Below are positions 49,628-63,707 of a DNA stretch of 64,000 nt, piece after piece. This DNA comes from Mycobacterium sp. SMC-8. GTDB taxonomy: Bacteria; Actinomycetota; Actinomycetes; Mycobacteriales; Mycobacteriaceae. The stretch is taken from assembly GCF_025263565.1 (NCBI RefSeq), contig NZ_CP079865.1, positions 1,984,001 to 2,048,000 of the forward strand. The letters run 5' to 3'. Under the pieces are notes generated by a model that saw only the letters and a program-made list of their open reading frames with translations, had not been told where the DNA came from and ran no database searches. The translations under genes and the position numbers were made by a program. Positions within the stretch are counted from its first letter, which is position 1; every line of letters starts with the position of its first letter.

Positions 49628-50587
49628 GTGACCATGCCCGTCGAACGGAACACCAAGGTCTCGATAGTCGGCATGGGCAGCGTGGGCACCGCGATCGCCT
49701 ATGCCTGCCTGATCCGCGGTTCAGCCGGAGCGCTGGCGCTGTACGACGTCAACGCCGCCAAAGTGCGCGCCGAGGTGCTCGACCTCAACCACGGCAGCCA
49801 GTTCGTTCCGCACTGCCGGATCACCGGCTCCGACGACATCGCGGCGACGTCGGGTTCGGCGGTCGTCGTGGTGACCGCGGGCGCCAAACAGAAGCCGGGC
49901 CAGAGCAGGCTGGATCTCGCCGCGGCAAACGTCGTGATGGCCCAGACACTCACGCCGCAACTTCTCGAGCACTCGCCCGACGCTGTCGTCGTGTTCGTCA
50001 CCAACCCTGTCGACGTGGTCACCTTCGCCGCCACCCGCGCCGTCGACGCCGCCCCCGGCCACATCTTCGGATCCGGAACGGTGTTGGACTCCAGCAGATT
50101 CCGGTATCTGATCGCCGAACATGCCGACCTGGCCGTCGGAAACGTGCACGGCTTCATCGTCGGCGAGCACGGAGACTCGGAGATCTCCTTGTGGTCGAGT
50201 GTGTCGGTAGGCGGTGTGCCTGCCGCGCGGTTCCGCCGCGACGGTGTACCGGTGTTCGACGAGGACAGCCGGCGCCGCATCTCGGCGGAGGTGGTCAACG
50301 CGGCCTACGAGATCATCGCAGGCAAGGGAGCGACCAACCTGGCGATCGGGCTGTCGTCGGCTCGGATCATCGAGGCGATACTCGGCGACCAGCACCGGGT
50401 GCTGCCCGTGTCCACCGTGCAGCAGGGCGCGCACGGCATCTCCGGCGTGGCGCTCTCGCTGCCCACGGTGGTCACCGCGCACGGCGCAGGCGAGGTGCTG
50501 GAGGTGCCGCTGTCGGATTCGGAACTGGCCGGGCTTCAGGCGTCGGCGGGCACCCTGCTGCAAGCGCAGCAGTCGCTAGGACTTTGA
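49628..50587 (+). CDS. ldh: L-lactate dehydrogenase
   Basis: 319 residues: NAD motif VGMGSVGTAIAYA, the specificity loop AGAKQKPGQSRLDL with Gln where malate dehydrogenases have Arg, TNPVD, GSGTVLDSSRFR and the catalytic His in GEHGDSE. This reduces pyruvate to L-lactate. GTG 49628 or the ATG six bases later may be the start. Its end overlaps the converging gene by 12 bases. Confidence 0.9.
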   Translation: MTMPVERNTKVSIVGMGSVGTAIAYACLIRGSAGALALYDVNAAKVRAEVLDLNHGSQFVPHCRITGSDDIAATSGSAVVVVTAGAKQKPGQSRLDLAAANVVMAQTLTPQLLEHSPDAVVVFVTNPVDVVTFAATRAVDAAPGHIFGSGTVLDSSRFRYLIAEHADLAVGNVHGFIVGEHGDSEISLWSSVSVGGVPAARFRRDGVPVFDEDSRRRISAEVVNAAYEIIAGKGATNLAIGLSSARIIEAILGDQHRVLPVSTVQQGAHGISGVALSLPTVVTAHGAGEVLEVPLSDSELAGLQASAGTLLQAQQSLGL

Positions 50588-51292
50588 CTGCCGTTCGATC
50601 CAGCGCTGCCCCATCTTCGCCGCCCGTGCCAGCGCTCCGCACTCGCCGAAGTAAGCAGCCAGCGCTCCGATCCCGGGCAGCAAGTTGAGCAGCCGGAACG
50701 GCGCACGGGGGTGCGGGCGTTTGGCGACCTCATCGCCGATCGCGTCGAAGAGACCGACGAGGTTCCACACCGCTGTGACGATGCCCGCCGGATTCTGCGG
50801 GATCCGGGCCAGGCGACGGTCTGTGCTCGGCTCGTAGACGATCACCGAGAGGTCGCGGTCGCACAGCACCGACGCCAGCATGCGCACCTGGGTGCGGTGA
50901 TCGGTCACGCCAAGTTCCCGCGCCACCGCGCACAGCACGGTGGCCTGGCTGACGAATCCGAGCAGATCCTGGATCGGCAGCCGGCGGGCCAGGATTCCCA
51001 ACGCCCCGGGGAACGCGACCGCCACGGTGTTCAGCGCACCGACCCGCCAGACCCACCAGTTGATCCGGTCGTGGGCGTCCATGTCGTCCCAGGACCGGGT
51101 GCCGGGAAGGTCGACCGCGTTGAGCAGTTGGCCGATGCCGTCGTCCCGGCGCTTCAGGTCGAGCGGATCGGTGCCCCACAGCACGTCCAGCAGCGGGTTG
51201 ATGATCCGCACCGCGGCGCTCAGCGCGGCGTCCACCCCGGCATCGGTGATCTGCACCGCGGGTGTCGGGATCGTGCTCGGCAGCATGCTCAC
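50576..51292 (-). CDS. Conserved hypothetical protein (238 aa)
   Basis: A mostly helical protein, Trp-rich in the first half (SWDDMDAHDRINWWVWRVGALNTVAVAFPGAL), with moderately hydrophobic stretches (LLGFVSQATVLCAVAREL; LLNLLPGIGALAAYFG) that may be membrane-associated. No family is recognised with certainty. It is transcribed alone, converging on ldh. Confidence 0.7.
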   Translation of the reverse strand: MSMLPSTIPTPAVQITDAGVDAALSAAVRIINPLLDVLWGTDPLDLKRRDDGIGQLLNAVDLPGTRSWDDMDAHDRINWWVWRVGALNTVAVAFPGALGILARRLPIQDLLGFVSQATVLCAVARELGVTDHRTQVRMLASVLCDRDLSVIVYEPSTDRRLARIPQNPAGIVTAVWNLVGLFDAIGDEVAKRPHPRAPFRLLNLLPGIGALAAYFGECGALARAAKMGQRWIERQSKS

Positions 51293-51342
51293 GGTTCCTT
51301 TGATGTCCGGCGAACCTTCAATTCAAACGTGGGCACCGACAG

Positions 51343-52128
51343 CTAGAACTTCAGATAACCGCCGTCAAGACGCAGCACGTCGCCGGTGTGGTACGCGCTG
51401 GCCGGGCTGGCCAGATAGACCGCGACACCGGCGACGTCCTCGGCAGCGCCCCACCGTCGCACCGGCACACGCGGCAACACCCGCGCACGGAACCGTTCGT
51501 CGGTCATGCCCTCGGCGGTCATCTCGGTGACGAACCATCCCGGCGCGATGGTGTTGGCGCGGATGCCGTGCCGCGCGAGCTCGACCGCGAGGCTGTCCAT
51601 CAGCGAGGTCACCCCCGCCTTGGACGCGGCGTAGGCGGGCTGGCGGGGCATACCCTGCAGCGCGCCCAGGCTTGACACCCCGACCAGGCTGCCGCCGCGG
51701 CCGGCCGCGATCATCTGCCGTGCCGCCTCGCGAAGTGTCACGAACACGCCGTCGAGGTCCACCCGCGTCACCTCACGGAACTCCTCCAGTGAGGTGTCCA
51801 GCACCGGGGTGAACGTGCCGCGAACTCCGGCGTTGGCGAAACATGAATCGAGATAACCGAACTCGCTGCGGATGCGCGCCATCGCGTCGGTGACGGCCTG
51901 CTCGTCGGTGACGTCGCAGACCACCGGCAGCACCGGATTGCCGTGACCGCGCAACGAGGCCGCCGCGGCCTCCAGACGCTGCGTGGAACGGCCGAGGATC
52001 GCGACCGTGGCCCCGGCGCGCGCCAGACCCGCGGCCATGCCGAGCCCGAGGCCGGAGCCGCCGCCGGTCACCACGGCCACATGGCCGGTGAGGTCGAACG
52101 GGTTGCGCGGCGCGGCGGTGTCGGTCAC
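51343..52128 (-). CDS. Short-chain dehydrogenase/reductase
   Basis: 261 residues from GTG 52128. Motifs: VTGGGSGLGLGMA, NAGVRG, VSSLGALQGMPRQPAYAASKAG (Ser, Tyr, Lys), TIAPGWFVTEM and LRLDGGYLKF. The frame continues far upstream but there overlaps the monooxygenase gene, so the GTG 11 bases past that gene's stop is taken. Probably one operon with the FAD monooxygenase. Confidence 0.9.
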   Translation of the reverse strand: MTDTAAPRNPFDLTGHVAVVTGGGSGLGLGMAAGLARAGATVAILGRSTQRLEAAAASLRGHGNPVLPVVCDVTDEQAVTDAMARIRSEFGYLDSCFANAGVRGTFTPVLDTSLEEFREVTRVDLDGVFVTLREAARQMIAAGRGGSLVGVSSLGALQGMPRQPAYAASKAGVTSLMDSLAVELARHGIRANTIAPGWFVTEMTAEGMTDERFRARVLPRVPVRRWGAAEDVAGVAVYLASPASAYHTGDVLRLDGGYLKF

Positions 52129-52139
52129 GGGGGGTGACC

Positions 52140-53372
52140 CTACGCGGGCGGCCGCCTCGCGAATTCGGGTGCACGCTCGGGGCGGAGCCCGACCCCGACG
52201 AGGTAGGCCGGGATGACCGTCAGCCAGGGCATGCGTTCTACCGCGCGCACCAGCCCCGGCGGCGGGCCGGCGAGGTTGCCGCGCAGGATCGGGCCGAGCA
52301 GTCGCCGGTCGATCAGGCGCTGCAGGGCCTGGGTCAGTGCGGTCGCGATCACCCGTCGGCGTCGCACCCCGGCCAGCTGCCGCGCGGTCACCGTGCCGGC
52401 GCGCAACGGCTCGGCGAGCAACCGGGCGGCGGCCACCCCGTCCTGGATGGCCACGTTGATGCCGACCCCACCCGCCGGCGACATCGCGTGGGCGGCGTCG
52501 CCCAGGAACAGCAGCCCATCGCAGTGCCAGCGGCTCAACCGGTTCATCTTGACGTCGAGATGCTTGACCTGGTCGAGATCGGTGATCGTGTCCACCACGG
52601 CAGCTGCCTCGGGCAGCAGCGCCCGCACGTCCGCGCGGAACGCATCCAGGCCGCGGGCCCGCTGCGCGGCGTCGGTGCCTTTCGGGATCAGCAGCGCGAT
52701 CTGCAGGTACTCCTCGCGCGGGATGACGATCATCGCCTTGCCGAGGGCCAGCCGGGGAAACAGCGTGTACATCGTGTCGTCGTCGGGGCGGGGCAGCCGG
52801 AACCACCATGCGTCGAAACTGACCGGGAACTCCCGGACCCGCAGTCCGGTCTGCTGCCGCAGCACGGAGTTGCGGCCGTCGCAGGCGATCGTCAGGTCGG
52901 CGTGCAGCTCACCGAAGCCGTCGTCGTCCCGGTAGCGGACGCCTACGACCCTGTCCACGTCGCGGATGAGCCCCACGGCCTCGGTGCGCATCCGCAGGGT
53001 GAACGTCGGCTCGGCCTCACCGGCCTCGGCGAGCAGATTGAGCAGATCCCACTGCGGCACCATCGCGACGTACGGATGGGGCAGCCGGCGAAGCCGGCCG
53101 AAATCGACCATGGTGACGCGCCGGCCGGGCGCCACGTCCACGGTCGCCCGCTGCAATCTGCTGTGGGGCAGCGCGGAGAACTTCGGCCACAGCCCCAACT
53201 CGTCGATCAACCGCAGCGTGGTGGGATGCACGGTGTCGCCGCGGAAGTCGCGCAGGAAGTCCTCGTGCTTCTCCAGCACCGTCACCTCGACACCGGCCCG
53301 GGCCAGCAACAGCCCCAGCACCATGCCGGCCGGGCCACCCCCCACGATCGCGCAGGTGGTTCGTGTGCTCAT
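52140..53372 (-). CDS. FAD-dependent monooxygenase (PHBH type)
   Basis: 410 residues: Rossmann motif IVGGGPAGMVLGLLLARAG, DG motif ACDGRNSVLRQQTGL and GD motif LLFLGDAAHAMSPAGGVGINVAIQD. This is the aromatic-hydroxylase group, which uses NAD(P)H and oxygen. It is the first gene of a pair with the SDR. The substrate is not identifiable. Confidence 0.9.
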   Translation of the reverse strand: MSTRTTCAIVGGGPAGMVLGLLLARAGVEVTVLEKHEDFLRDFRGDTVHPTTLRLIDELGLWPKFSALPHSRLQRATVDVAPGRRVTMVDFGRLRRLPHPYVAMVPQWDLLNLLAEAGEAEPTFTLRMRTEAVGLIRDVDRVVGVRYRDDDGFGELHADLTIACDGRNSVLRQQTGLRVREFPVSFDAWWFRLPRPDDDTMYTLFPRLALGKAMIVIPREEYLQIALLIPKGTDAAQRARGLDAFRADVRALLPEAAAVVDTITDLDQVKHLDVKMNRLSRWHCDGLLFLGDAAHAMSPAGGVGINVAIQDGVAAARLLAEPLRAGTVTARQLAGVRRRRVIATALTQALQRLIDRRLLGPILRGNLAGPPPGLVRAVERMPWLTVIPAYLVGVGLRPERAPEFARRPPA

Positions 53373-53399
53373 CTGGTCATGGTGACAGCCGAACCGTGT

Positions 53400-53711
53400 T
53401 CAGTCGATCGAACTCCGGAAGTCGATGCCCCCCTGGGCGGCCTGCGCCCAGTCGTTCATGTCGACGACGGGATGGATGTTGAAGGTGTTGAACGGCGCGA
53501 ACTTCATTGTTTCCGTGAGCAGTTCGGTGGCGTTGTCGGTCTCCACGATGGCGAAGCCGCCTTCTCCGTCGATGCGGCCGACGAATTGGTGGAATGTGGT
53601 GCCTGCCGGCGGCTGCCATTTGGAGAACAGTTCCAGCGCGCGACGGAGCGCTTCCTCATTCTCCTTGCCCGAGCCGCCGAGCCGCGACGTCCAGGTCATG
53701 GCGTACTTCAT
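53400..53711 (-). CDS. DUF3303-like small protein (103 aa)
   Basis: From ATG 53711 with a good GAGGAG site. The sequence (MKYAMTWTSRLGGSGKENEEALRRALELFSKWQPP, then FHQFVGRIDGEGGFAIVETDNATEL) has the ferredoxin-like dimeric alpha/beta-barrel pattern of DUF3303. Function is unknown. It lies 27 bases upstream of the monooxygenase gene on the same strand, so probably in that transcript. Confidence 0.8.
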   Translation of the reverse strand: MKYAMTWTSRLGGSGKENEEALRRALELFSKWQPPAGTTFHQFVGRIDGEGGFAIVETDNATELLTETMKFAPFNTFNIHPVVDMNDWAQAAQGGIDFRSSID

Positions 53712-54021
53712 GGGTAACTCCTCGTTTGAAGCTGAATCAGACGGGCTCGAGTGTGCGCCGGGGGGCGGCGGTGTACTGGCGAACCGGCGAGGCTCGAAGT
53801 AGCTAGTTGAAGGGCCAAAAGATAGCTCTTGCAATGTGTTTTAGCTGCCAATGTGACCGGCCCACTCGCCGACTGCGGGTGCGTGGGGGCCCACGTGATC
53901 TTGTGGTTTGCCCGGGCGCGCAGCCCGCCGCCGCGGCGGTGGCATTCGGGTTTCCCGGTACCCGCGACAACAGCGTCCCCGGCGGGGCACAATGTAGTCC
54001 GTTGATTCGGAGACCCGGTCG
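53712..54021. other. 310-bp intergenic region, divergent promoter of the regulator cluster
   Basis: No gene is supported here. It holds two perfect palindromes: cgtggg-gg-cccacg (53882-53895) and ccgccgcggcgg (53928-53939). The middle part (about 53800-53860) is AT-richer than its surroundings and is the likeliest place for promoters in both directions. A small RNA cannot be excluded. Confidence 0.5.
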
Positions 54022-54624
54022 GTGACGTCACCAGGGGGGCCCGTGGAGGCGAGAAACGATCGATCCGCCGTCGATGGCCGCCGGGCGATTCGCGTGGCGG
54101 TGGTCGACGAGAACCACATCTTCCGCCGTGGAGTTCAAGCCTGTTTGGAGGGCAGCGACGTCATCAGCATCGTGTTCGAAGGGGCGGCCGGACCGGTGCC
54201 CGAGGCCGTTGACGTGGTGATCGCCTCCGATCGGACCGCTACCGGAATTTGTTCGGCCAAGCCCACATTGGTGTGCAGCGACGCGCCCCGCCGAGGTGCC
54301 ACGGCGGGCGCGAACGTGGTGGCCGTGCTGCCCCGGGGTCGACTCACCGAGAGTCAGCTCGGTGCAGCCGTGCAGGCTGCAGCGAGCGGACTCCAAGTCG
54401 GTGTCGCCGCCGGCGGGCCGAGCCCCGCGCCGGGCGGCCTGCCCGAACGATCGCTGCACGTGCTGCGACTGTTGGCCGCGGGCTACGGAACCAGAGAGAT
54501 CTCCGACACCGTCGGGTGCTCCGAGCGGACCGTCAAGTACGCCATTCGCGATGCCGAACGCCACCTGGACGCGCGCAGCCGAGCCCAGGTGGTCGCAGAG
54601 GCGATCCGCCAGGGCATGATCTGA
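54022..54624 (+). CDS. LuxR/NarL-type regulator with degenerate receiver (200 aa)
   Basis: Receiver-like half (RVAVVDENHIFRRGVQACLEG at about 24-44) joined to a C-terminal LuxR HTH (ERSLHVLRLLAAGYGTREISDTVGCSERTVKYAI). The acidic pocket residues DE are present, but the strand normally ending in the phosphoacceptor reads DVVIASDRT, so Ser69 stands in its place. Hence it is probably not phosphorylated. Start GTG 54022. It is the first of three related genes upstream of the unusual operon at 55.8-60.0 kb. Confidence 0.85.
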   Translation: MTSPGGPVEARNDRSAVDGRRAIRVAVVDENHIFRRGVQACLEGSDVISIVFEGAAGPVPEAVDVVIASDRTATGICSAKPTLVCSDAPRRGATAGANVVAVLPRGRLTESQLGAAVQAAASGLQVGVAAGGPSPAPGGLPERSLHVLRLLAAGYGTREISDTVGCSERTVKYAIRDAERHLDARSRAQVVAEAIRQGMI

Positions 54625-54634
54625 CGTACCGAAA

Positions 54635-54655
54635 GGGCAACACCAACGGGCAACC
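54635..54655. promoter_or_regulatory. Paired GGGCAAC motifs between the two LuxR-type genes
   Basis: gggcaac at 54635-54641 and gggcaacc at 54648-54655, 13 bases apart start to start, in the 105-base gap before the second regulator gene. The same motif recurs upstream of the operon at 55353-55397. Candidate binding sites of one of these regulators. Confidence 0.5.
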
Positions 54656-54729
54656 GGTCTGCGGCGATGGCCCGAAGGTACGCACCACAACCCAGTCCGG
54701 TGAGCCGTCGATGTTGGTTCAATGGACGG

Positions 54730-55344
54730 ATGGATCGGAGGGTCGCCCTCTGGGTGGATGACTCCAACGCGATCTTTCGGCGGGGGCTCGCGGAGTGCCT
54801 GACCACGTCCGGTTTCGAGGTCGTGGGGGAGAGCGCGCATCTGACTCCCTCGCCGGATCTGACCGCCGCCGAGATCCTGCTGCTGGAACTGGACGGCCCG
54901 GCGGTGTCGGCGGCACCCGATTTCGTCGCCGCCGGGACGAGGTGTGTGGGGGTGGCAGAGACCGGCTCGGTGGTGTTGATGGAGGGGGCCGTCAAGGCCG
55001 GATTCGCGGGGCTGTTGCTCCGTGCGGAGATCACCCCGGCCAGCCTGGTGGCCGCGTGCCGGGCTGTCGCCCATGGGTTGGGCTCGATACCGCCGTCGGT
55101 GCTGTCGCCCCTGCTGGGGCACGGGAACGGCGCAGGTTCACTGGGCGATCGTGGTGTGCTCGCCTGCCGAGAGCTCAGCGTGCTGCGACTGCTCGCTCAG
55201 GGCAGCACGACCAGGGAGATCGCGGGCGAGCTGTGTTATTCGGAACGCACGGTCAAGAACATCGTGCACGACACCCTCGCCAAGCTTCACTGCCGCACCC
55301 GGGCCGAGGCGGTCGCGGTGATGGCCCGGCAGGGTGCGCTATAA
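54730..55344 (+). CDS. LuxR/NarL-type regulator with degenerate receiver (204 aa)
   Basis: From ATG 54730. Receiver-like part VALWVDDSNAIFRRGLAECLTTSGFEVVGE, and an HTH at about 145-204 (RELSVLRLLAQGSTTREIAGELCYSERTVKNIVHDTLAKLHCRTR). The expected phosphoacceptor strand reads EILLLELDGP, with Glu53 in place of Asp, a constitutive-mimic type change. The switch Lys is replaced by Arg (GLLLRAEI). Paralogue of the preceding gene. Confidence 0.85.
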   Translation: MDRRVALWVDDSNAIFRRGLAECLTTSGFEVVGESAHLTPSPDLTAAEILLLELDGPAVSAAPDFVAAGTRCVGVAETGSVVLMEGAVKAGFAGLLLRAEITPASLVAACRAVAHGLGSIPPSVLSPLLGHGNGAGSLGDRGVLACRELSVLRLLAQGSTTREIAGELCYSERTVKNIVHDTLAKLHCRTRAEAVAVMARQGAL

Positions 55345-55352
55345 GCCGCACC

Positions 55353-55397
55353 GGTTGCCCCGAAGGTTGCCCGTCGGCCTCTCGTGAAGGGGGCAAC
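55353..55397. promoter_or_regulatory. Cluster of three GGTTGCCC/GGGCAAC motifs before the operon
   Basis: ggttgccc at 55353-55360 and 55365-55372 (12 bases apart), then the reverse-oriented gggcaac at 55391-55397. They lie in the 93-base gap upstream of the third receiver-like gene, where the operon promoter should be. Confidence 0.5.
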
Positions 55398-55437
55398 GTC
55401 TGACTAGCGTCGGTCTCCGGAAGGTAGGAGGCCACAT

Positions 55438-55767
55438 GTGCTCCAGATTCTGCTGGCAGGTTTCGGCGAGGTGGCACGGCGGGGGATCCGCGCGATCCTG
55501 TCGTCGCCGGAGCTGGTCATCGATGAATGCGCACTCGAATGTGTGATGACCGTCCTGGTCACCCGGACCCCGAACGCCGTGGTGATCGAAGCCGGGACAC
55601 GCGATCTCACCCGTGCCGAGCGGGTCGCCGCGGCATGTCCGGCGGTCACCGTGGTGGCGTGTTCGGCCGACGAGGAGACGATCCGCATCTTTCCGAAGTT
55701 CTGCGGCGGGCAGTGCCGGGCGCAGCCCTTGAGCGCCGAAGCGCTGCGCGCGAGTGTGTGGAGTTGA
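55438..55767 (+). CDS. Stand-alone receiver-like protein without HTH (109 aa)
   Basis: LQILLAGFGEVARRGIRAILSSPELVIDE aligns by eye with the start of the two upstream LuxR-type proteins, and NAVVIEAGTRDL with the phosphoacceptor strand, where Glu51 replaces Asp. The DNA-binding domain is absent. Five Cys are present, two in FCGGQC. Start GTG 55438 has a good AGGAGG. It is separated by one base from the transglutaminase-like gene, so it heads the operon. It may compete with or modulate the two full-length regulators. Confidence 0.7.
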   Translation: MLQILLAGFGEVARRGIRAILSSPELVIDECALECVMTVLVTRTPNAVVIEAGTRDLTRAERVAAACPAVTVVACSADEETIRIFPKFCGGQCRAQPLSAEALRASVWS

Positions 55768-55768
55768 C

Positions 55769-56773
55769 ATGAGCGTCGCGTGCGCCAACGGTACTGCGCT
55801 GGCCGAAACCGAAGCGCCACTGCGGATTACAACGACCCGAATCCCGTCGGGATCACGCGGAACGGATTGGACGGTCGAGCGGATCCGCTCGTTCATCCTC
55901 GACGGCGCCAAGGACTTCACGGTACGCCGGAGGGTGGTCGACATCCTCAGAGCTCAACGGATCCGCGCCAGGGACTATCTCGGCGAGATCAAGGCGCTGT
56001 TCGAATGGGTGCAGAGCAACATCCGCTACACCCGCGACCCGCACCGCGTGGAGCTGCTGCACTCGGCGCGCAGAATGCTCGAGCTGCGCGCCGGCGACTG
56101 CGACGACATGACCATCCTGCTCGGCGCCATGCTCCAATCCATCGGGCATCCGGTACGGATCGTCGTCATCGGCCCGAACCCTCGGCGCCCCAATCTCTTC
56201 ACCCACGTCTACCCGGAAGTCCGGTTCCGGGGGCGCTGGATCGCCGTGGATGCCACGGTGTCACACCCTATGGGCTGGAAGCCCCGGGCGATCGTGAAGA
56301 AAGTCATCTCGCTGCAAAGGAGACCGGGCATGAGCCTGCATGACTTCGACGACGGCCTCGGCCAGTCGTATGGGGCCGCGGATCTGGTGGAGGCGGTGCG
56401 GACCATGGGTCTGCAGCCGCGCGATCCGCGGGTGAAGGAGGTTTGGGACGCACTGCGGGCGCGGGGGATGCTGTCCCGCGATCTTTGGGTGCGACGGCTG
56501 CTGCTGCGACTCTGGCGGCAAGGGCTGCCGCCGGGCAACCGGCCGCGCAGTGCGGGCCGGCTCGACGCCGTGATACGCGGCTCCGACCAGCCCGGGTACC
56601 AGGCACCGGCCGCGTCGGCCTTTTATCCCTCCGCTTACACCTCCGCCACGCCCTACTACCCCCGCGCGCGTTATTACCCGCTTCCTTCATTGTGGCGGCC
56701 GGGCTGGGTGCGGCCGCGGCCGGTGCCCGCGCCGGCACCCCGATACTACCGGCCGACGGTACGGCGGCACTGA
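55769..56773 (+). CDS. Transglutaminase-like cysteine protein
   Basis: 334 residues from ATG 55769. The transglutaminase/papain-fold core has Cys111 in LRAGDCDDMTILLGAML, His146 in NLFTHVYPEV and Asp161 in GRWIAVDATV, a complete triad. The preceding IKALFEWVQSNIRYTRDPHRVELLHSA is typical. Such domains cleave or cross-link proteins. The C-terminal third is basic and Tyr/Pro-rich (YYPRARYYPLP; RPVPAPAPRYYRP), perhaps for binding. No signal peptide. It is part of an operon of small probable structural proteins, so a maturation or cross-linking role is suggested. Confidence 0.8.
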   Translation: MSVACANGTALAETEAPLRITTTRIPSGSRGTDWTVERIRSFILDGAKDFTVRRRVVDILRAQRIRARDYLGEIKALFEWVQSNIRYTRDPHRVELLHSARRMLELRAGDCDDMTILLGAMLQSIGHPVRIVVIGPNPRRPNLFTHVYPEVRFRGRWIAVDATVSHPMGWKPRAIVKKVISLQRRPGMSLHDFDDGLGQSYGAADLVEAVRTMGLQPRDPRVKEVWDALRARGMLSRDLWVRRLLLRLWRQGLPPGNRPRSAGRLDAVIRGSDQPGYQAPAASAFYPSAYTSATPYYPRARYYPLPSLWRPGWVRPRPVPAPAPRYYRPTVRRH

Positions 56774-56803
56774 AAGCCGTACAGAGAAAAGGAGATTCAG
56801 ACC

Positions 56804-57379
56804 ATGGCACGTGTGACAGGCGTCAAGGAGAAGCTGCACAGCCCCCTTTACGATGCCATTTTCATCAACGAGGGCGAGACGCTCGCGGATGTGATGCGAG
56901 ATCCGAGCGTCATCCGGTTCTTCGTCGACGTCCAGAACAAGACCAGGCTGGAGACCAATCTGCAGGCGTCCGGGGTGCTTCCGAGCCTCAATACCTTCGA
57001 AGCCAGAGCCATGCGTGTAGTCATCAGCGGTCCGAACCCGGACCGCTACGACACCCGTGATCTGTTCATCCCTGAGCTGATCTACGGCTCGGTGGTCTCA
57101 CTGCTGGTCGGTGAGAAGGAGGCCATCACCGCTCCGACGTACATGTTCCCGTCCGGCGCGGGCGTGCTCGGTGCCAGCGGTGAGATGCCGCTCAGTCACG
57201 GTGAGCCCGACCCGCTTTCGACGTTCCGATTCGCCGAGCCGGTATTCATCGACCCGCAGCAGAACTTCCGTGTCGAGATGCTCTTCCCGCGCGGTGTCAC
57301 TTCGTTGCTGCTCGACGAGATCGGCCCTCGGCATATTTGGGTGGTCCTCGACGGCTACCTGACCCGCGATGTGCAGTGA
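56804..57379 (+). CDS. Uncharacterised beta-rich protein A (191 aa)
   Basis: No family recognised. ATG has AAAAGGAG upstream. The protein is rich in alternating hydrophobic strands (RFFVDVQNKTRLETNL; AMRVVISGPNP; IYGSVVSLLVGE) and ends NFRVEMLFPRG, DEIGPRHIWVVLDGYLTRDVQ-like. The end pattern, a strand after a Pro/Gln loop and then a strand closing with GY, recurs in the 194-aa protein encoded at 58136. No signal peptide or membrane helix. A structural (shell, tube or capsid-like) role is possible but unproven. Confidence 0.7.
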   Translation: MARVTGVKEKLHSPLYDAIFINEGETLADVMRDPSVIRFFVDVQNKTRLETNLQASGVLPSLNTFEARAMRVVISGPNPDRYDTRDLFIPELIYGSVVSLLVGEKEAITAPTYMFPSGAGVLGASGEMPLSHGEPDPLSTFRFAEPVFIDPQQNFRVEMLFPRGVTSLLLDEIGPRHIWVVLDGYLTRDVQ

Positions 57380-57391
57380 CGGAAGACAGGG

Positions 57392-58123
57392 ATGGCAATG
57401 GTTGACAACGGTCTTGACGGATTCGGTGATGAGGAACTGATGACCGTTCAGGGTTTGGACGACGTCGCAGACTACGGTGCGCTCTACCAGGCTCCGGACG
57501 GGTCACTGTTCCAGGTGCAGGGATTCGACGACGATCTGCAGAACGGCGCGGACGCGGTACCGGGTGAGGTACGGCTGGGCGACGACGGCAGGTTGTATCA
57601 GTGGGTGCAGGGTTACGACGGACTCGGTGATCCGGTCGGCTTCTGGTCGTTGCTGCCCGGCATCGCCAAGACGGTGCTGCCGATGGTGGCTTCCCGCGTC
57701 GTGCCCAGATTGCGGCGGTTCCTGGCGCCGGCAGTGCGGCCGGCGCCGGTCGTCCGACGGGCGCCGGTGGCGCCTCCACCCGTCACGCAGCAGGACCCCC
57801 AGGTTCCGGTGCCCGACGACACCGGCGAGGATCTGACGGGCTTCGCTGCGCTGTATCAGGCACCCGACGGGGGCCTGTACCAGATGCCGGGTGTCGGTGA
57901 CGACGAGCTGTACGGCAGCGACGAACTGGACGGCAGCGACGAACTCGACGGCGACGACGATGAACTGCGCGGTACCGAAGGCTACGTGCGGGAGCCCCGC
58001 GGGGGTGTGTGCTCGTGCTCCGGCCTGCGGGGGATCGACGCGTATGTCCCCGCCGAGCCACCGCAGACCCCGCAGTTCGTGCGGCCCGTGAACGCGCCCG
58101 ACATGTGGCGCCCGCTCTGGTAG
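57392..58123 (+). CDS. Acidic repeat protein (243 aa)
   Basis: No family recognised. A short motif recurs: YGALYQAPDGSLFQVQGFDDD (about 28-48), LGDDGRLYQWVQGYDGLGD (about 62-80) and FAALYQAPDGGLYQMPG (about 151-167). Between them lies an amphipathic stretch and a Pro/Arg linker (about 85-135). After the last repeat comes an Asp/Glu run (GSDELDGSDELDGDDDEL), then CSCS and a Pro tail ending MWRPLW. The acidic run could bind cations or the basic transglutaminase-like protein. Gaps of 12 bases on both sides place it inside the operon. Confidence 0.7.
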   Translation: MAMVDNGLDGFGDEELMTVQGLDDVADYGALYQAPDGSLFQVQGFDDDLQNGADAVPGEVRLGDDGRLYQWVQGYDGLGDPVGFWSLLPGIAKTVLPMVASRVVPRLRRFLAPAVRPAPVVRRAPVAPPPVTQQDPQVPVPDDTGEDLTGFAALYQAPDGGLYQMPGVGDDELYGSDELDGSDELDGDDDELRGTEGYVREPRGGVCSCSGLRGIDAYVPAEPPQTPQFVRPVNAPDMWRPLW

Positions 58124-58135
58124 GAGGCGGCTGAC

Positions 58136-58720
58136 ATGCAGGACGAACAGCTGGGAGCGGCACGGCTGCTCGGTCCGCGGCAGGAGCTGCGGACCAACGG
58201 GTGGGGAGCGCCCGTGCGGCTCAAAGAGATCCCCTATGACCACGTGGCGGTCTTCACTCTGGCCGGGCGACGGGGCGCGCGGGTCGAGGACGTCATCAAC
58301 GTCTCCGTCGACGGCGTGCTCATCGCGACGTCGATCGGGTACAGCTTCGTGCCCGCCGAGCCGCCCGGGTCGGTGATTTTCAGTCAGCCGGATGTCAACC
58401 AGCTGTTGGCCGGACTCTTCACCGATCCGCGGGTTGGGATACGGGCGCTTGCGGCAAAGGTGTTCGGGATCGACTTCACCTACAGCATCATCGACAGCGG
58501 TACCGGCCGCGAACTGCAGAACCGGGCTATCCACAACACCGCCGGGCTCGGCAGCCCGGATGGTCGGCGCCCGTTCCGGCCGATGGCCAAGCCGATGCTG
58601 TTTCAGCCCCGGTCCACCATTCGGGTGGTGGTCGACGAGATTTCGGAGGGGCCGCTGTACCAGGGTGCACAGCTGTTCATCGCGCTGCACGGCTACAAGA
58701 TCCTCGGCGCCGGGACATGA
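58136..58720 (+). CDS. Uncharacterised beta-rich protein B (194 aa)
   Basis: No named family. Strong site TAGGAGG. Strand-rich sequence: YDHVAVFTLAG, VINVSVDGVLIATSIGYSFVP, IDFTYSIIDSGTGRELQNRAIHN. The end is PMLFQPRSTIRVVVDEISEG then YQGAQLFIALHGYKILG. The final strand-loop-strand block resembles that of the 191-aa protein and, less clearly, the 159-aa protein that follows. Cytosolic by composition. Possible building block of a particle or fibre. Confidence 0.7.
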   Translation: MQDEQLGAARLLGPRQELRTNGWGAPVRLKEIPYDHVAVFTLAGRRGARVEDVINVSVDGVLIATSIGYSFVPAEPPGSVIFSQPDVNQLLAGLFTDPRVGIRALAAKVFGIDFTYSIIDSGTGRELQNRAIHNTAGLGSPDGRRPFRPMAKPMLFQPRSTIRVVVDEISEGPLYQGAQLFIALHGYKILGAGT

Positions 58721-58723
58721 CCG

Positions 58724-59203
58724 ATGCCGGTGCACCAGGATTGCGGATGTCCGGGTGCAGGCCAGTGCGAGGTCTGCGACAACCCGCTTGACACGGCGCC
58801 GTTCGACAACAGCGCTGTGCTACCCGCCCCCGAACCGGGGCAGGAGATTGTGCTGGCGCGGTACTCGCTGCGGCCCCAATACTGCGGAATACTGCGCTAC
58901 TTCATGCAATTCACCGACCGGTACGCTGCCGATCCGACCAGGATCCGCACACCGGGTTACCAATGGCAGATTCGTTCCGGGGCGTATCCGCTGGACCCCT
59001 ATCTGACTTTCGATCACATCATCAATCCGTGGGGTTCTTCGGCTGTGCCGGTGGACATCCGGCTCGCCGAATCGGTAACCATCGAGTTCGTTGTCCGCAA
59101 TGTCGGCGCCACCGGCACCGACATCCTGTCCGAGGTCGGCGGTCGGATCATCGGACGGCATTGGTACGACACCCGTTTCGGTGGCGCACCGCGGTTGCTG
59201 TGA
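58724..59203 (+). CDS. Uncharacterised beta-rich protein C (159 aa)
   Basis: No named family. The N-terminus is a Cys cluster (HQDCGCPGAGQCEVCDNPL, four Cys within ~14 residues) that could bind zinc or a cluster. Then comes a strand-rich part (LRPQYCGILRYFMQFTDRY; YQWQIRSGAYPLDPYLTFDHI; VPVDIRLAESVTIEFVVRNVG; VGGRIIGRHWYD). It starts 3 bases after the preceding stop. The layout suggests it belongs to the same fold group as proteins A and B with an added metal-binding arm. Confidence 0.7.
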   Translation: MPVHQDCGCPGAGQCEVCDNPLDTAPFDNSAVLPAPEPGQEIVLARYSLRPQYCGILRYFMQFTDRYAADPTRIRTPGYQWQIRSGAYPLDPYLTFDHIINPWGSSAVPVDIRLAESVTIEFVVRNVGATGTDILSEVGGRIIGRHWYDTRFGGAPRLL

Positions 59204-59234
59204 GCCAATCACTGCACTGATTAAGGAGGCGGCC

Positions 59235-59996
59235 ATGTATCTGAGCGATCAACCGGTGCCGGCCGGCATGCAGAAGCTGGTGCACCGGCGCAAAGCCGGA
59301 CGTGTCGCGGCCGGAATGGCGGGGGTGAGCGCAGAGGATGAGCTGCTGGGCGCCCCGATCTTCGACTTTCCGGCGTGTGCTCCATGTCCGCTGCCGACGG
59401 CCGAACAGTGTCTCACCGCGCTGCGGCAAGCGATCGTTCGCGCGATCAGGCTGGCCAACAACGCAGCCGACAAGGTCGATGCCTCGATCAGCGTGGCGCC
59501 TGCTGCGCGGGGCGCGGATGCCGTACGCACCGCAAGGATCTTCCGCAGCTTCTTCGGACACGACCCGTCGCGGCCGGTCCCATGGGCCGGCAACGAGGCG
59601 TCGGGAGTCAGCGTCGCCAAACGATTGCGGGCGGTGGCCAGGGAGCTCGACGGTGGACGTCGCATCACCTTCGAATGCCGGCCGGCGGTGGCCGGATGCG
59701 CAGACAACGATCTGACGTGCTGCACACCGTGCGACAACGCCTGGGTGCATGCGAACGTCGGACGCAACACCGTGGTGCTGTGCCCGATGTTCTGGGCGGC
59801 CACCCGAGATATCCGGGCCGGGATCATCATCCATGAGATGTTGCATCTGCTCTACGGGCATCTCCGGGACGTCGGCGAGGGCAGGATCCGGAACGCGTGC
59901 TACGAGGCATTCGCGTTGCGGCTGGCGGGGATCACACCGGATCCGTTCGACGTCTGCAACTGCCGGGCCACGCCTTGCCCCGCGGCGGTCTGCTGA
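59235..59996 (+). CDS. HExxH zinc metallopeptidase-like protein (M35-like)
   Basis: 253 residues from ATG 59235, preceded by AAGGAGG. The active-site helix IIIHEMLHLLYGH gives His200-Glu201-His204, with His209 and later acidic candidates. The preceding TVVLCPMFWAATRDIRAG and the following RNACYEAFALRLAG resemble the deuterolysin/M35 (aspzincin) layout. Eleven Cys, several in CADNDLTCCTPC and CNCRATPC, suggest disulfides or metal binding outside the cell, yet no signal peptide is seen. Last gene of the rightward operon; 8 bases separate its stop from the converging gene. Confidence 0.8.
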   Translation: MYLSDQPVPAGMQKLVHRRKAGRVAAGMAGVSAEDELLGAPIFDFPACAPCPLPTAEQCLTALRQAIVRAIRLANNAADKVDASISVAPAARGADAVRTARIFRSFFGHDPSRPVPWAGNEASGVSVAKRLRAVARELDGGRRITFECRPAVAGCADNDLTCCTPCDNAWVHANVGRNTVVLCPMFWAATRDIRAGIIIHEMLHLLYGHLRDVGEGRIRNACYEAFALRLAGITPDPFDVCNCRATPCPAAVC

Positions 59997-60004
59997 CGCG
60001 CGGT

Positions 60005-60868
60005 TCACCTCTGGTAGGCGGCGGCGCTTCCCGGCGTGATCGGTCGCAGGGTCGTCGCGTCGACGACGATCTCGAACCGGTTGCCCAACTTGGACATCGT
60101 TATCTTCTGGATCGGTGGGTCAAACAGCGGATCGTTGGCCCAGAGCTCGCCGCGCGGCGAACGCCTGACCATCACCCAGTGCCGACCTCCGACGAGATCA
60201 GCCAAGACCGGTGAGCCCGCCCTGAGCGCGTCGAGCGCCCGCGCTCTGTCCACCGTGACGACTTTGACGTTGGTGACGCCGTATCGGTCTGCGAGGTCCT
60301 GGTTGTATTGCGCCAGCGAGCCCGGATCGGCCGAATGGCTCACGATGCGGCTAATCAGCAGTCGCGCCTCGGTCGGTGTGTCGCCCTTCGACTTTGCCGC
60401 AAGGATGTCCTTGTTCAACGCGGCGAGAACCTGGCGATAGGTCGGCTTGGCGATTCCGAATATCGACCGGAGTGCCATGCTCCGCGCGGAACCGAGGCAG
60501 AAGCTGCCCGCGGCCTCCGATCGGTCGAACTGCTGCCGCTGCGGTGTGAAGCGCCACGGGGTGCTGCGTCCGGAACGGCCCTGCGGGTCCTTCTTTGTGA
60601 CCGGGAACCTGGTGTAGTTCAACGGAACTCCCGACTGGTTCTCGTACACCGTCTTCAAGTTCTCCAAGAATTCGGCTTCGCGCGCCCACAGTGAGAACCT
60701 GCCGAAGTCCCGGAGGACCGAAGCCACCGTATGTCCTTGCCGCGACTTCGCTCGGTGGCGGACGCTCTCGGCTTTCATCTGCCGTCTGGCGTGCCGGATC
60801 GCAGTGTCGATCGCGCTGAGCGGCGTGCGAACAGCCTGGCCGATCTCGGATACGGTGTGCAGGTACAT
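60005..60868 (-). CDS. C39-like papain-fold cysteine peptidase candidate (287 aa)
   Basis: The second half fits a C39-like peptidase: Cys124 in AAGSFCLGSARSMALRSIFG, His230 in LVGGRHWVMVRRS, and Asn245-Asp246 in LWANDPLFDPP. The first ~110 residues are basic and helical with no homology seen by eye. C39 peptidases mature secreted peptides or proteins, often at Gly-Gly sites. It follows the 410-aa gene by 21 bases and faces the metallopeptidase gene. No signal peptide or membrane helix is visible. Confidence 0.7.
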   Translation of the reverse strand: MYLHTVSEIGQAVRTPLSAIDTAIRHARRQMKAESVRHRAKSRQGHTVASVLRDFGRFSLWAREAEFLENLKTVYENQSGVPLNYTRFPVTKKDPQGRSGRSTPWRFTPQRQQFDRSEAAGSFCLGSARSMALRSIFGIAKPTYRQVLAALNKDILAAKSKGDTPTEARLLISRIVSHSADPGSLAQYNQDLADRYGVTNVKVVTVDRARALDALRAGSPVLADLVGGRHWVMVRRSPRGELWANDPLFDPPIQKITMSKLGNRFEIVVDATTLRPITPGSAAAYQR

Positions 60869-60889
60869 CTGCTCCCTCGGCGAAAACGA

Positions 60890-62122
60890 TTACGGCAGCT
60901 GGACTTCCACCCGGGTGCCTGCCTTGCCGGTGCCGAAGAGGATCACAATGCTGCGTACGCCTTGGGCGCGGCTGGGCAGGAACTTGCGCACGGTGAGCGC
61001 GATCCGCCGGATCTCACCGGCGATCGCCTTTCGGCTGCTCAAATCTCCTCGTCCGTACTGAGGCAGAGGCACTGTCACCGACGTCGCCTTGGCTTGGTGC
61101 GCGTGTTCGAGCTGCTCGGCGAGGCTCAACGCCAGCGCCTGGGCGTCGGGATAGGTTTGCGCTTCCTGCTCCGCGGCGTCGCGGGCGTACCGCGCCGCGG
61201 TCTCCTCGGTGGGTCCCGCGGTCTCCAGGGCTCGCCGTGTTCTGGTCAGACGTACCCGCACATGTGAGGGAAGCAGGGCTTGCGGACTGACCTGCTCCTT
61301 GACTGCGCGTTCGATGCGGGTCACCACGTCGACCGGCAGCACCGGGCCCGCCGGTCGGGGTGTGCGCTGCCCGGGCGCGCGTCGGGCACCCTGCCATTCG
61401 ATCTGCACGATGTTGGGCGTGACCGGCTCCTGCCGTGGCGACGGCGGACTCGGGGGCGCTGCCGATGGCTCCGGAAAGACCTGTACCCCAGGAATTCCCG
61501 TCACCTTGCGGAAGCCTTCGGGAAACACCTCGCGGCCGATGTGAGCGACTGCGGCGGTCGAAGGACGATTCGAGCAGAAGCTGCTGCCGGTGTGCTCGGG
61601 GGTCGGCGAGTACAGGTCGATGTGAGCGTCGAACTCGTCTCGCGATCGCGGTGATCCGACCGAGATGTGCAGGCTGTCGGATTTCGAGATCTCCCGCAGC
61701 GTGGTCTGTCCTTTGTGCAGGCTCGCGCCCACACCTTGGGCCATGCAGAACCGGCCGGTCGCCATGAGGGATTGGATCAGTGCGTCGCCGGACTGTGCGG
61801 TGAAGTACACCGCCGGTGTGACCCCGGGAACCCGAAGTGCGCGATCGGCGACCAGGAACGGCGCCTCGCCGGCGGTGACCTTGACGATCCGCCGGACCTG
61901 AGGCCACACTCCGTATCGGCACATCCGATTGAAGATCGCGGTCAGTGCGAAGCGGATGTCACGGTCCAGACCGTCGAACCATTCGGCAGGCCTGGTCACC
62001 GACGCGGACACCACCCGCCTGAGATCGGCCGGTTGCTTCTCGAAGCGGTCGAGCGAGACCGCCGAACAGTCGGTCGGCGCACCCTGAGGCTGCCCCAGGC
62101 CGGCACTGGTCATGACGTACAT
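60890..62122 (-). CDS. Uncharacterised protein (410 aa)
   Basis: Start ATG 62122 is set by an AGGAG site about 8 bases upstream; in-frame codons further up (for example 62173) lack one. The N-terminal ~245 residues look globular (WFDGLDRDIRFALTAIFNRMC; DEFDAHIDLYSPTPEHTGSS; VAHIGREVFPEGFRKVTG). A Pro-rich linker and an Ala/Glu-rich helical region (EETAARYARDAAEQEAQ) follow. The C-terminus is a beta-rich piece (VRSIVILFGTGKAGTRVEVQLP). No family is recognised. It is the first gene of the leftward pair and so probably shares a function with the facing operon. Confidence 0.7.
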   Translation of the reverse strand: MYVMTSAGLGQPQGAPTDCSAVSLDRFEKQPADLRRVVSASVTRPAEWFDGLDRDIRFALTAIFNRMCRYGVWPQVRRIVKVTAGEAPFLVADRALRVPGVTPAVYFTAQSGDALIQSLMATGRFCMAQGVGASLHKGQTTLREISKSDSLHISVGSPRSRDEFDAHIDLYSPTPEHTGSSFCSNRPSTAAVAHIGREVFPEGFRKVTGIPGVQVFPEPSAAPPSPPSPRQEPVTPNIVQIEWQGARRAPGQRTPRPAGPVLPVDVVTRIERAVKEQVSPQALLPSHVRVRLTRTRRALETAGPTEETAARYARDAAEQEAQTYPDAQALALSLAEQLEHAHQAKATSVTVPLPQYGRGDLSSRKAIAGEIRRIALTVRKFLPSRAQGVRSIVILFGTGKAGTRVEVQLP

Positions 62123-62234
62123 GGCTGGTCTCCTGCCGCATTCGCCGGCCGCGCGCGATGCGCGTCCGGTCATGACGCCATCTTTCGCGCCGGACAAGGT
62201 GTGTCGGCAGAGGTGACAGGGCAGTCTTTGGGGC

Positions 62235-63707
62235 ATGTGTGCGGATGCGACGGGGCTGAGGATGGGCACGGCGGCGGGCCGGTGGGTGCTGCTGGCCACG
62301 GTGCTCGGATCCGGCCTGGTGATGGTCGACGGCACGGTGGTCAACATTGCGCTGCCGCACATCGGCAGCGACCTCGGAGCGGGATTCCGCAGCCTGCAGT
62401 GGATCGTCAACGCCTACACGCTCACACTGGCTTCGCTGATCCTGCTCGGCGGGTCACTCGGTGACCGGTTCGGGCGGCGACGGGTCTTCCTGATCGGCGT
62501 GGTCTGGTTCGCGCTGGCCTCGCTGGCCTGCGGCCTGGCTCCGAGCACCGAGGTGCTGATCGCGGCGAGAGCCCTACAGGGCGTCGGCGGTGCCCTGCTC
62601 ACGCCCGGCAGCCTGGCCCTGATCTCCGCGTCGTTCCACCCCGGGGACCGGGCCGCGGCCATCGGCGCGTGGTCGGGTCTCGGCGGGATCGCCGGAGCCA
62701 TCGGCCCGTTCCTGGGTGGCTTCCTGGTCGAGTGGAGCTGGCGCGCAGTGTTTCTCATCAACCTGCCGCTGGCTGTGATCGTGGTGGCGGTGACGGTTGC
62801 GCGGGTGCCCGAAAGCCGGAACCCGGAGGCTCCGAGGGATCTCGATCTCGCCGGTGCCGCGCTGGCCGTCGCCGGTCTGGGGGCGTTGACCCACGGGCTC
62901 ACCGCGCTGGGAGGCGGCGATGTGAGCTTCGGGTCGGTGGCGAGCATCGGCGTCGGGGTGCTCGCCCTGATCGCGTTTGTCATCGTCGAGCGCCGATCCG
63001 ACCATCCCCTGGTGTCACCGAAGCTGTTCGCCGACAGAAATTTCCGGGTGACCAATGCGATGACGCTGCTGATCTACGGTGCGCTCGGCGCGGTGTTCCT
63101 GTTGCTGGTGCTGCAACTGCAGATCGTGGCCGGCTTCAGTCCGGTCGCCGCAGGTACCGTGCTGCTGCCGTTCACCGCGGTGATGCTCGTCTTCTCGTCG
63201 CGTGCGGGAGCGCTGTCCAGCCGGATCGGTCCGCGGCTGCCGATGACGGTCGGCCCGTTGATTGCCGCAGTCGGCTTGTTGTTGATGATGCGGATCGATG
63301 CCGACGCGTCGTGGGTGTTCGACGTCGCACCCGCGGCCATCGTCTTCGGTGCGGGCATGGTGCTCGTCGTCGCGCCTTTGACTGCGACGGTGCTGGATTC
63401 GGCCCCGGAGAGCATGGCCGGATCCGCCTCCGGCGTGAACAACGCGGTGGCCCGGGCCGGTGGGCTGCTGGCGGTGGCCGTGCTGCCCGGGTTGGCCGGG
63501 ATCAGCGGCGGGGACTACGCCGCGCCCGACGCCTTCGCGGCCGGCTTCCGCATCGCGGTGCTGATCTCGGCCGTGATGATGGTGATCGCTGCGGTGATGG
63601 CCGGCGTCGGAATCCGGCGCGCGCCGGCCGGCCATGCCGAGCGGATCGCGGTCGAGAACTGCACCCATTGCGCGCTTTCGGGATTACCCCCGCACCCGGT
63701 GGAGTAG
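62235..63707 (+). CDS. MFS multidrug exporter, DHA2 (14-helix) type
   Basis: 490 residues with about 14 helices. Landmarks are MVDGTVVNIALPHIGSDLG (helix 1, motif D1), GGSLGDRFGRRRVFLIG (motif A), ARALQGVGGALLTPGSLALI and motif C in GGIAGAIGPFLGGFLVEWSWRAVFLINLP. This is the EmrB/QacA group, which exports drugs or lipophilic metabolites by proton antiport. It is transcribed away from the 410-aa gene across 112 bases with no clear operator. Confidence 0.92.
   Translation: MCADATGLRMGTAAGRWVLLATVLGSGLVMVDGTVVNIALPHIGSDLGAGFRSLQWIVNAYTLTLASLILLGGSLGDRFGRRRVFLIGVVWFALASLACGLAPSTEVLIAARALQGVGGALLTPGSLALISASFHPGDRAAAIGAWSGLGGIAGAIGPFLGGFLVEWSWRAVFLINLPLAVIVVAVTVARVPESRNPEAPRDLDLAGAALAVAGLGALTHGLTALGGGDVSFGSVASIGVGVLALIAFVIVERRSDHPLVSPKLFADRNFRVTNAMTLLIYGALGAVFLLLVLQLQIVAGFSPVAAGTVLLPFTAVMLVFSSRAGALSSRIGPRLPMTVGPLIAAVGLLLMMRIDADASWVFDVAPAAIVFGAGMVLVVAPLTATVLDSAPESMAGSASGVNNAVARAGGLLAVAVLPGLAGISGGDYAAPDAFAAGFRIAVLISAVMMVIAAVMAGVGIRRAPAGHAERIAVENCTHCALSGLPPHPVE

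Follow-up and report, generated by a model that had tools for sequence, protein, structure and literature searches.

A rare, scattered chromosomal gene island in Mycobacterium sp. SMC-8 that may encode a capsid-like particle or coat carrying tagged hydrolytic enzymes

Cargo proteins of encapsulins carry a short targeting peptide, which is mostly C-terminal. Encapsulins are described, in part of PMC8987985, as chromosomally encoded capsid-like shells that take in cargo. Extracellular contractile injection systems address their payloads by N-terminal sequences, of 50–70 residues in PVC (passage in PMC11495950). The tailless Salisaeta icosahedral phage 1 (SSIP-1) is listed as possibly single jelly roll in a section of PMC6260650. 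Here a gene island of Mycobacterium sp. SMC-8 is compared with these systems. The window is a stretch of 64,000 nucleotides (contig NZ_CP079865.1, positions 1,984,001–2,048,000) and the island consists of 11 genes within it. With a rough probability of 0.5, the product of the island is a capsid-like particle (or a coat) that carries hydrolytic enzymes. The features, by window position and strand, are given below; designations of the form L0xx are locus labels.

53713..62248, no strand: the island, bounded by comparison with mycobacteria that do not have it (collinear flanks)
54022..54624, +: LuxR-type regulator 1 (200 aa); GerE/LuxR helix-turn-helix, Pfam 3.7e-10; same-place relative in L001 and L002
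54667..55344, +: LuxR-type regulator 2 (225 aa); GerE 2.3e-12; relative in L001 and L002
55438..55767, +: R3, 109 aa, no family match; relatives confined to L001 and L002; possibly the remnant of a receiver-like regulator
55769..56773, +: TG, transglutaminase-like protein with C/H/D triad (Pfam PF01841)
56804..57379, +: P191, candidate shell protein, predicted single jelly roll (structure model, fold matches)
57392..58123, +: P243, acidic repeat protein, candidate scaffold or filler (composition, C-terminus ...WRPLW)
58136..58720, +: P194, candidate second shell protein, predicted jelly roll (structure model, fold matches)
58724..59203, +: P159, conserved, CxxC near the N-terminus (15 of 20 loci, alignment of nine sequences); candidate vertex or minor shell protein
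59235..59996, +: M35-type metallopeptidase with 14 Cys, candidate payload (Pfam PF14521, 33.1 bits)
60005..60868, -: C39-like protein, candidate payload (weak Pfam C39_2; N-terminus MYLHTVSEIGQ)
60890..62122, -: P410, N-terminus MYVMTSAGLGQPQG, candidate payload (alignment, tag pattern of the Mycolicibacterium vaccae copy)

The core set of TG, P191, P194 and P159 is conserved and co-inherited. The order is the same in 20 loci (17 found by scanning genome contigs, plus the window and two more genomes). TG is present in 19 of these, P194 in 18 and P159 in 15, and every absence is at a contig end. Pairwise distances are correlated among the four proteins (r 0.43–0.88), and none of 999 permutations gave values as high. 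An earlier note on this DNA had raised the question of whether the genes move as a unit; the common order and the correlated distances support this, and a pattern of rare co-occurrence was looked for and not found. Database labels place the loci in Actinomycetota, Pseudomonadota, Nitrospirota, Acidobacteriota, Gemmatimonadota, Calditrichota, Verrucomicrobiota and KSB1. Fifteen of 17 named loci are metagenome bins, thus individual host names may be wrong. There are two types of island. The short type is found in actinobacteria, Nitrospira, Gemmatimonadetes, Methylotetracoccus and one acidobacterium. The long type usually has a longer P191; it also has repeated P194 (as two genes and/or fused copies) and the repeat protein upstream of P191.

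The core structural proteins are unnamed in Pfam, NCBIfam, PHROGs and PADLOC. P191 has 2,319 homologous clusters (from 2,496 candidates), and no Pfam domain was found on any of the 120 clusters listed. The P191 sequence is strongly conserved over its whole length, with 48 invariant positions in alignment A1. No relative of P191, P194 or P159 was detected in IMG/VR or in phage records, and none of P191 among plasmids (P194 and P159 were not searched there). The PDB displays no sequence relative of P410 or of P191, where a single row is at chance level (E 0.39).

Structure models predict that P191 (pLDDT 76.6, pTM 0.70) and P194 (pLDDT 77.9, pTM 0.68) resemble the jelly rolls of viral capsids. 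The fold matches of P191 are mostly viral capsid proteins. Its best BFVD match is I1ZBH9 (E 2e-5), unnamed in the tool, which from its numbering may be an SSIP-1 protein. The predicted folds agree with those of the single jelly-roll major capsid proteins of tailless viruses (SSIP-1, helvetiaviruses), the matches being modest and common to cellular proteins too. The profiles of P191 and P194 match each other at E 0.0011 with a probability of 20, which is suggestive only; the P159 profile matches neither. Of the three small proteins from which the earlier note suggested a particle, capsid-derived or surface assembly, two are predicted jelly rolls of capsid type. The same proteins had been described as being without signals or helices. 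No signals are apparent by hydropathy, but the models do contain helices, two of 10–12 residues in P194 and short ones in P191.

None of the three proteins was matched to a known enzyme family by sequence. By fold, however, the enzyme PHM supplies the top match of P194 with its jelly-roll domain, at a level about equal to the capsid matches, so that P194 could conceivably belong to a known enzyme family. DUF2961, PHM and other cellular jelly-roll proteins have the general fold that is predicted here (part of PMC8812541), but differ in gene context and have no sequence match to the island proteins. This PHM match, together with the statement in the same source that double jelly rolls are not confined to viruses (PMC8812541), would fit a system with no assembly at all, in which PHM-like or carbohydrate-binding jelly rolls act with peptidases to degrade a substrate outside the cell. 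That explanation is quite unlikely: no export signals are seen by hydropathy, P191 is conserved throughout, TG is related to a virion protein and the end peptides described below are conserved.

TG matches Transglut_core (PF01841) with 51.2 bits against a cut-off of 23. The triad C111/H146/D161 (numbering from the ATG at 55769), which had been noticed from the sequence alone, is identical in all 19 aligned relatives. Transglutaminase-like folds include proteases. A search of 50,697 phage records with TG gave four matches at E 0.01. The best is gp34 of SSIP-1 (tblastn 9e-8), which is annotated as a structural protein and appears in two records; the others are from one unannotated phage and one Geoglobus virus. 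When 55 of the 57 annotated SSIP-1 proteins were searched, the TG profile found gp34 at E 2.4e-19, the next value being 0.12.

A weaker resemblance involves the SSIP-1 structural proteins gp45 and gp46, which are of about 210 aa and have a weak C-terminal motif in common with P191. The P191 profile scores 25.3 with a three-sequence gp45/gp46 profile, compared to 9.7 when reversed and 20.9 for the best of 100 column shuffles, and the profiles align at the same C-terminal strand pair. Comparison of single sequences gave nothing above reversed decoys. For P194, three of 100 shuffles scored as high as the real gp45/gp46 comparison. The gp46 protein itself has only one other homologue among 5.8 billion proteins, and none in IMG/VR except SSIP-1.

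The SSIP-1 structural module is like the island in that gp34 is related to TG and gp45/gp46 to some extent resemble P191. The two differ in that genes for an ATPase, a primase, an integrase or any other phage function are missing from the island, and none of the 55 SSIP-1 proteins begins with MY[LIVM] or MF[LIVM]. It could be supposed that the island is a remnant or satellite of an SSIP-1-like tailless virus that still moves DNA, with the hydrolases serving entry and lysis. The common TG type, the weak likeness of P191 to gp45/gp46 and the patchy spread would agree with this. It is nevertheless very unlikely, since the 11 genes include no integrase, packaging ATPase or replication gene, no att-like repeats are present, viral contigs contain no relative and the island is single copy in the 17 seed genomes.

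Neither the gene content nor searches of phages, plasmids (not with P194 or P159) and IMG/VR point to an ordinary prophage or plasmid element, and this reading was rejected. No integrase, portal, terminase or tail gene was matched among the island proteins, none of the 11 belongs to a packaging ATPase or replication family, and no long direct repeats flank the island. This upholds the view that the locus is not an ordinary prophage. An anti-phage defence system was also rejected, as none of eight proteins (seven from the island) had a PADLOC match.

An N-terminal tag of the approximate form MY[LIV]xTxxGLGQ begins genes that lie behind the core in many islands, e.g. MYLRTAEGLGQ, MYLRTAGLGQP, MYIRTHNGFGQ and MYVVTGPGLGQ. 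In the window the M35 protein starts with MYLSDQPVPAG, the C39-like protein with MYLHTVSEIGQ and P410 with MYVMTSAGLGQ. A plausible ribosome site precedes each, AAGGAGG in the case of the M35 gene. The M. vaccae copy of the C39-like protein begins MYLRTDSGLGE. In Streptomyces the tagged copy begins MVYVRTPGYG and has no Pfam match. The first part of P410 aligns with tagged proteins of 111–130 aa from other islands. Among 32 N-termini collected by hand, Thr is at position 5 in 17 and G-[LFIVY]-G is present in 17.

The tag is concentrated behind the core. The DNA pattern ATGTAYNT occurs five times in the 64-kb window, and three of these are the starts of the M35, C39-like and P410 genes. In 14 loci, a start of the form MY[LIVM], in frame and not more than 60 residues in, was found in 26 of 100 open reading frames (at least 90 residues) located up to 8 kb behind the core, compared to 1 of 89 elsewhere (Fisher p 2.8e-7). 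Spurious frames were kept in both groups, and P410 of the window was scored as untagged because its frame was taken from an upstream TTG. The sole tagged frame elsewhere (L017, position 6042) is just before TG within the island. A stricter DNA pattern gave 11 matches in 19 genomes (~104 Mb), of which eight are island gene starts in six genomes. The other three are unconvincing or internal frames, and the reversed control also gave three.

The tag is fused to unrelated domains. Those above the Pfam cut-off are M35 (window), trypsin (L008, L017), M23 with peptidoglycan-binding (L034), OmpA (L006, L013, L017), extensin-like (L017) and DUF2515 (L004). Beta-lactamase-2 (L004), M35 (L012) and phospholipase A2 (L013) are below it. 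A tagged Streptomyces protein (L002, 5947–7254) has a C-terminal part which by eye is similar to an E-x-K nuclease, with no Pfam or PADLOC match. In the window, the protein with the zinc site noticed earlier (HExxH, here HEMLH) matches Aspzincin_M35 (PF14521) with 33.1 bits, above the cut-off of 30. The C39-like assignment holds less well; a C39_2 match was found, but at 15.9 bits it is below the cut-off of 24. The earlier note took the two peptidases for enzymes that trim the assembly. They are more likely payload than particle processors, because they and P410 carry the tag that is found on unrelated enzymes elsewhere. The tagged hydrolases would act mostly on walls, proteins or lipids, and those of the window have no obvious export signal by hydropathy.

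P243 has 31 D, 11 E, 14 Q and 1 K in 243 residues and a conserved C-terminal end, ...RPLW. The acidic or tyrosine-rich repeat protein that adjoins P191 has [LI]W as its last residues, mostly as RPLW, in 15 of the 18 loci whose contigs extend far enough; overall, such ends are found in 17 of 1,826 open reading frames. The exceptions are L017, which ends KSPW, L034, which has FKPYF there, and L011, which has none. The bodies of the repeat proteins differ while the end stays, and this suggests that the end serves in docking.

In the preferred explanation P191 and P194 would form a shell that closes, to which P159 would contribute as another structural component. P243 would dock to the shell through its RPLW peptide and fill or scaffold it, and TG, which is related to the structural protein gp34 of SSIP-1, may process or cross-link the assembly. 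The M35 peptidase, the C39-like protein and P410 would be recruited by their N-terminal tag. Dedicated regulators would turn the island on, and release, perhaps by lysis, would deliver the enzymes to a target outside. The earlier idea of a particle or surface assembly is partly supported by the jelly rolls and co-inheritance, but with the peptidases more likely as payload. Several observations count against this explanation. The tag was not found in L009 and L010, tags are few in L012, L013 and L016, and some downstream enzymes are untagged (PLD, L012). In addition, the fold predictions are only moderate (pLDDT 77–78) and jelly rolls also occur in cellular proteins.

The proteins might instead polymerize on the cell as a surface coat, fibre or matrix, with TG cross-linking the jelly rolls and the tagged hydrolases on display. 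Jelly-roll proteins do build bacterial appendages, such as the Ena-type endospore appendages, whose subunits have an N-terminal connector, and Foldseek matched P191 to Ena3A, although weakly (E 1.6e-2). Acidic and tyrosine-rich repeat proteins, and the OmpA and peptidoglycan-binding domains of tagged proteins, would also suit an envelope structure. No Sec signal or membrane stretch is seen in the island by hydropathy, however, capsids make up most of the fold matches and TG is related to a virion protein, which makes this arrangement rather unlikely.

A capsid-like shell with peptide-addressed cargo would work much as an encapsulin does. The differences would be a predicted jelly roll in place of the HK97 fold, several shell proteins, an N-terminal tag and hydrolases as cargo. 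No island protein matches an encapsulin profile, and the models are all-beta jelly rolls. Contractile injection systems are similar in that their payloads carry an N-terminal address, but the tag here is only about 11–15 residues and the island has no AAA ATPase, nor was any sheath, tube or baseplate found among its proteins.

The island is a unit that is gained or lost at one site. The closest named relatives are Mycobacterium sp. 4D054 (P194 99% identical) and M. vaccae (P191 96%), and the DNA of the M. vaccae locus aligns collinearly with window positions 49634–63676 at ~81%–82% identity. Screening of 98 mycobacterial-group genomes for both flanking genes led to five sites that were opened, four with both flanks on one contig and one with the left flank alone. 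In L062 the flanks, located by blastn, are collinear and 617 bases apart, whereas the window has about 8.9 kb between them. The site is occupied by 8–12 kb of other DNA in L059, L060 and L061. None of the five sites gave a match to the 11 island proteins at E 0.001.

By genome counts the island is rare and scattered. P191 is carried by 1 of 198 mycobacterial-group, 1 of 296 Actinomycetota, 1 of 246 Streptomyces-group, 2 of 198 Nitrospirota, 1 of 200 Gemmatimonadota, 1 of 247 Acidobacteriota and 2 of 82 KSB1-group genomes; the counts include the centre genome after which each group is named, and the draws partly overlap. All 17 seed genomes have P191 as a single copy. An island of the chromosome that has spread horizontally is the best explanation. 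Word searches among open-licence full texts found no literature on this system.

Coordinates and spacing of the nine genes at 55438–62122 were re-derived as first stated, and the two LuxR-type genes complete the island. Gaps in the rightward operon from 55438 are 1, 30, 12, 12, 3 and 31 bases, and the leftward C39-like gene converges on the M35 gene with an 8-base gap. An in-frame GTG at 55754 is a longer alternative to the TG start. The G+C content is 0.66 at 56–62 kb compared to 0.67–0.72 elsewhere in the window. A simple hydropathy scan, made with no dedicated signal-peptide program, showed no obvious N-terminal signal stretch in the 11 proteins. No Rfam match was found in 53300–62600, and a promoter and terminator scan gave nothing above chance. 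An ARAGORN tRNA-Val at 52166–52256, antisense within a monooxygenase gene, is probably false and was not used.

Upstream regulators vary: LuxR in the window, sigma-54 activators in L004, L010, L012, L016 and L017, and BTAD/SARP in L006 and L008. A class I methyltransferase (Methyltransf_25) is behind the core in three distant islands (L002 7259–7906, L012 17002–17772, L010 16158–17078), and spermidine-synthase-like and S-adenosylmethionine-decarboxylase genes are between the core and the tagged genes of L034 (9347–10533, - strand). A small conserved protein of the long type ends QLYI[VI]GGRYR[IV]T...GI.G (L012 7892–8236, L017 8178–8447, L034 15887–16435 on the - strand, L011 4410–4766). Other small proteins of this type, between TG and P191, start ML[VY]QD... 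and have Y-D-G-[LF]-G-N-P and arginine-run C-termini (L012 5787–7834, L010 7673–8221).

It is proposed, tentatively and at somewhat less than even odds, that the island represents a new class of device, i.e. a jelly-roll particle with an ancestry common to a tailless-phage structural module, present in bacterial chromosomes of about eight phyla, which docks diverse hydrolases by an N-terminal tag and a repeat scaffold by RPLW. If true, this would be a jelly-roll counterpart of the encapsulins and the tail-derived injection machines, with modular, tag-addressed enzyme cargo, and the tag is a simple experimental handle for testing it. It would also make testable whether single jelly-roll capsids became devices owned by cells, as HK97 capsids may have, or the reverse.

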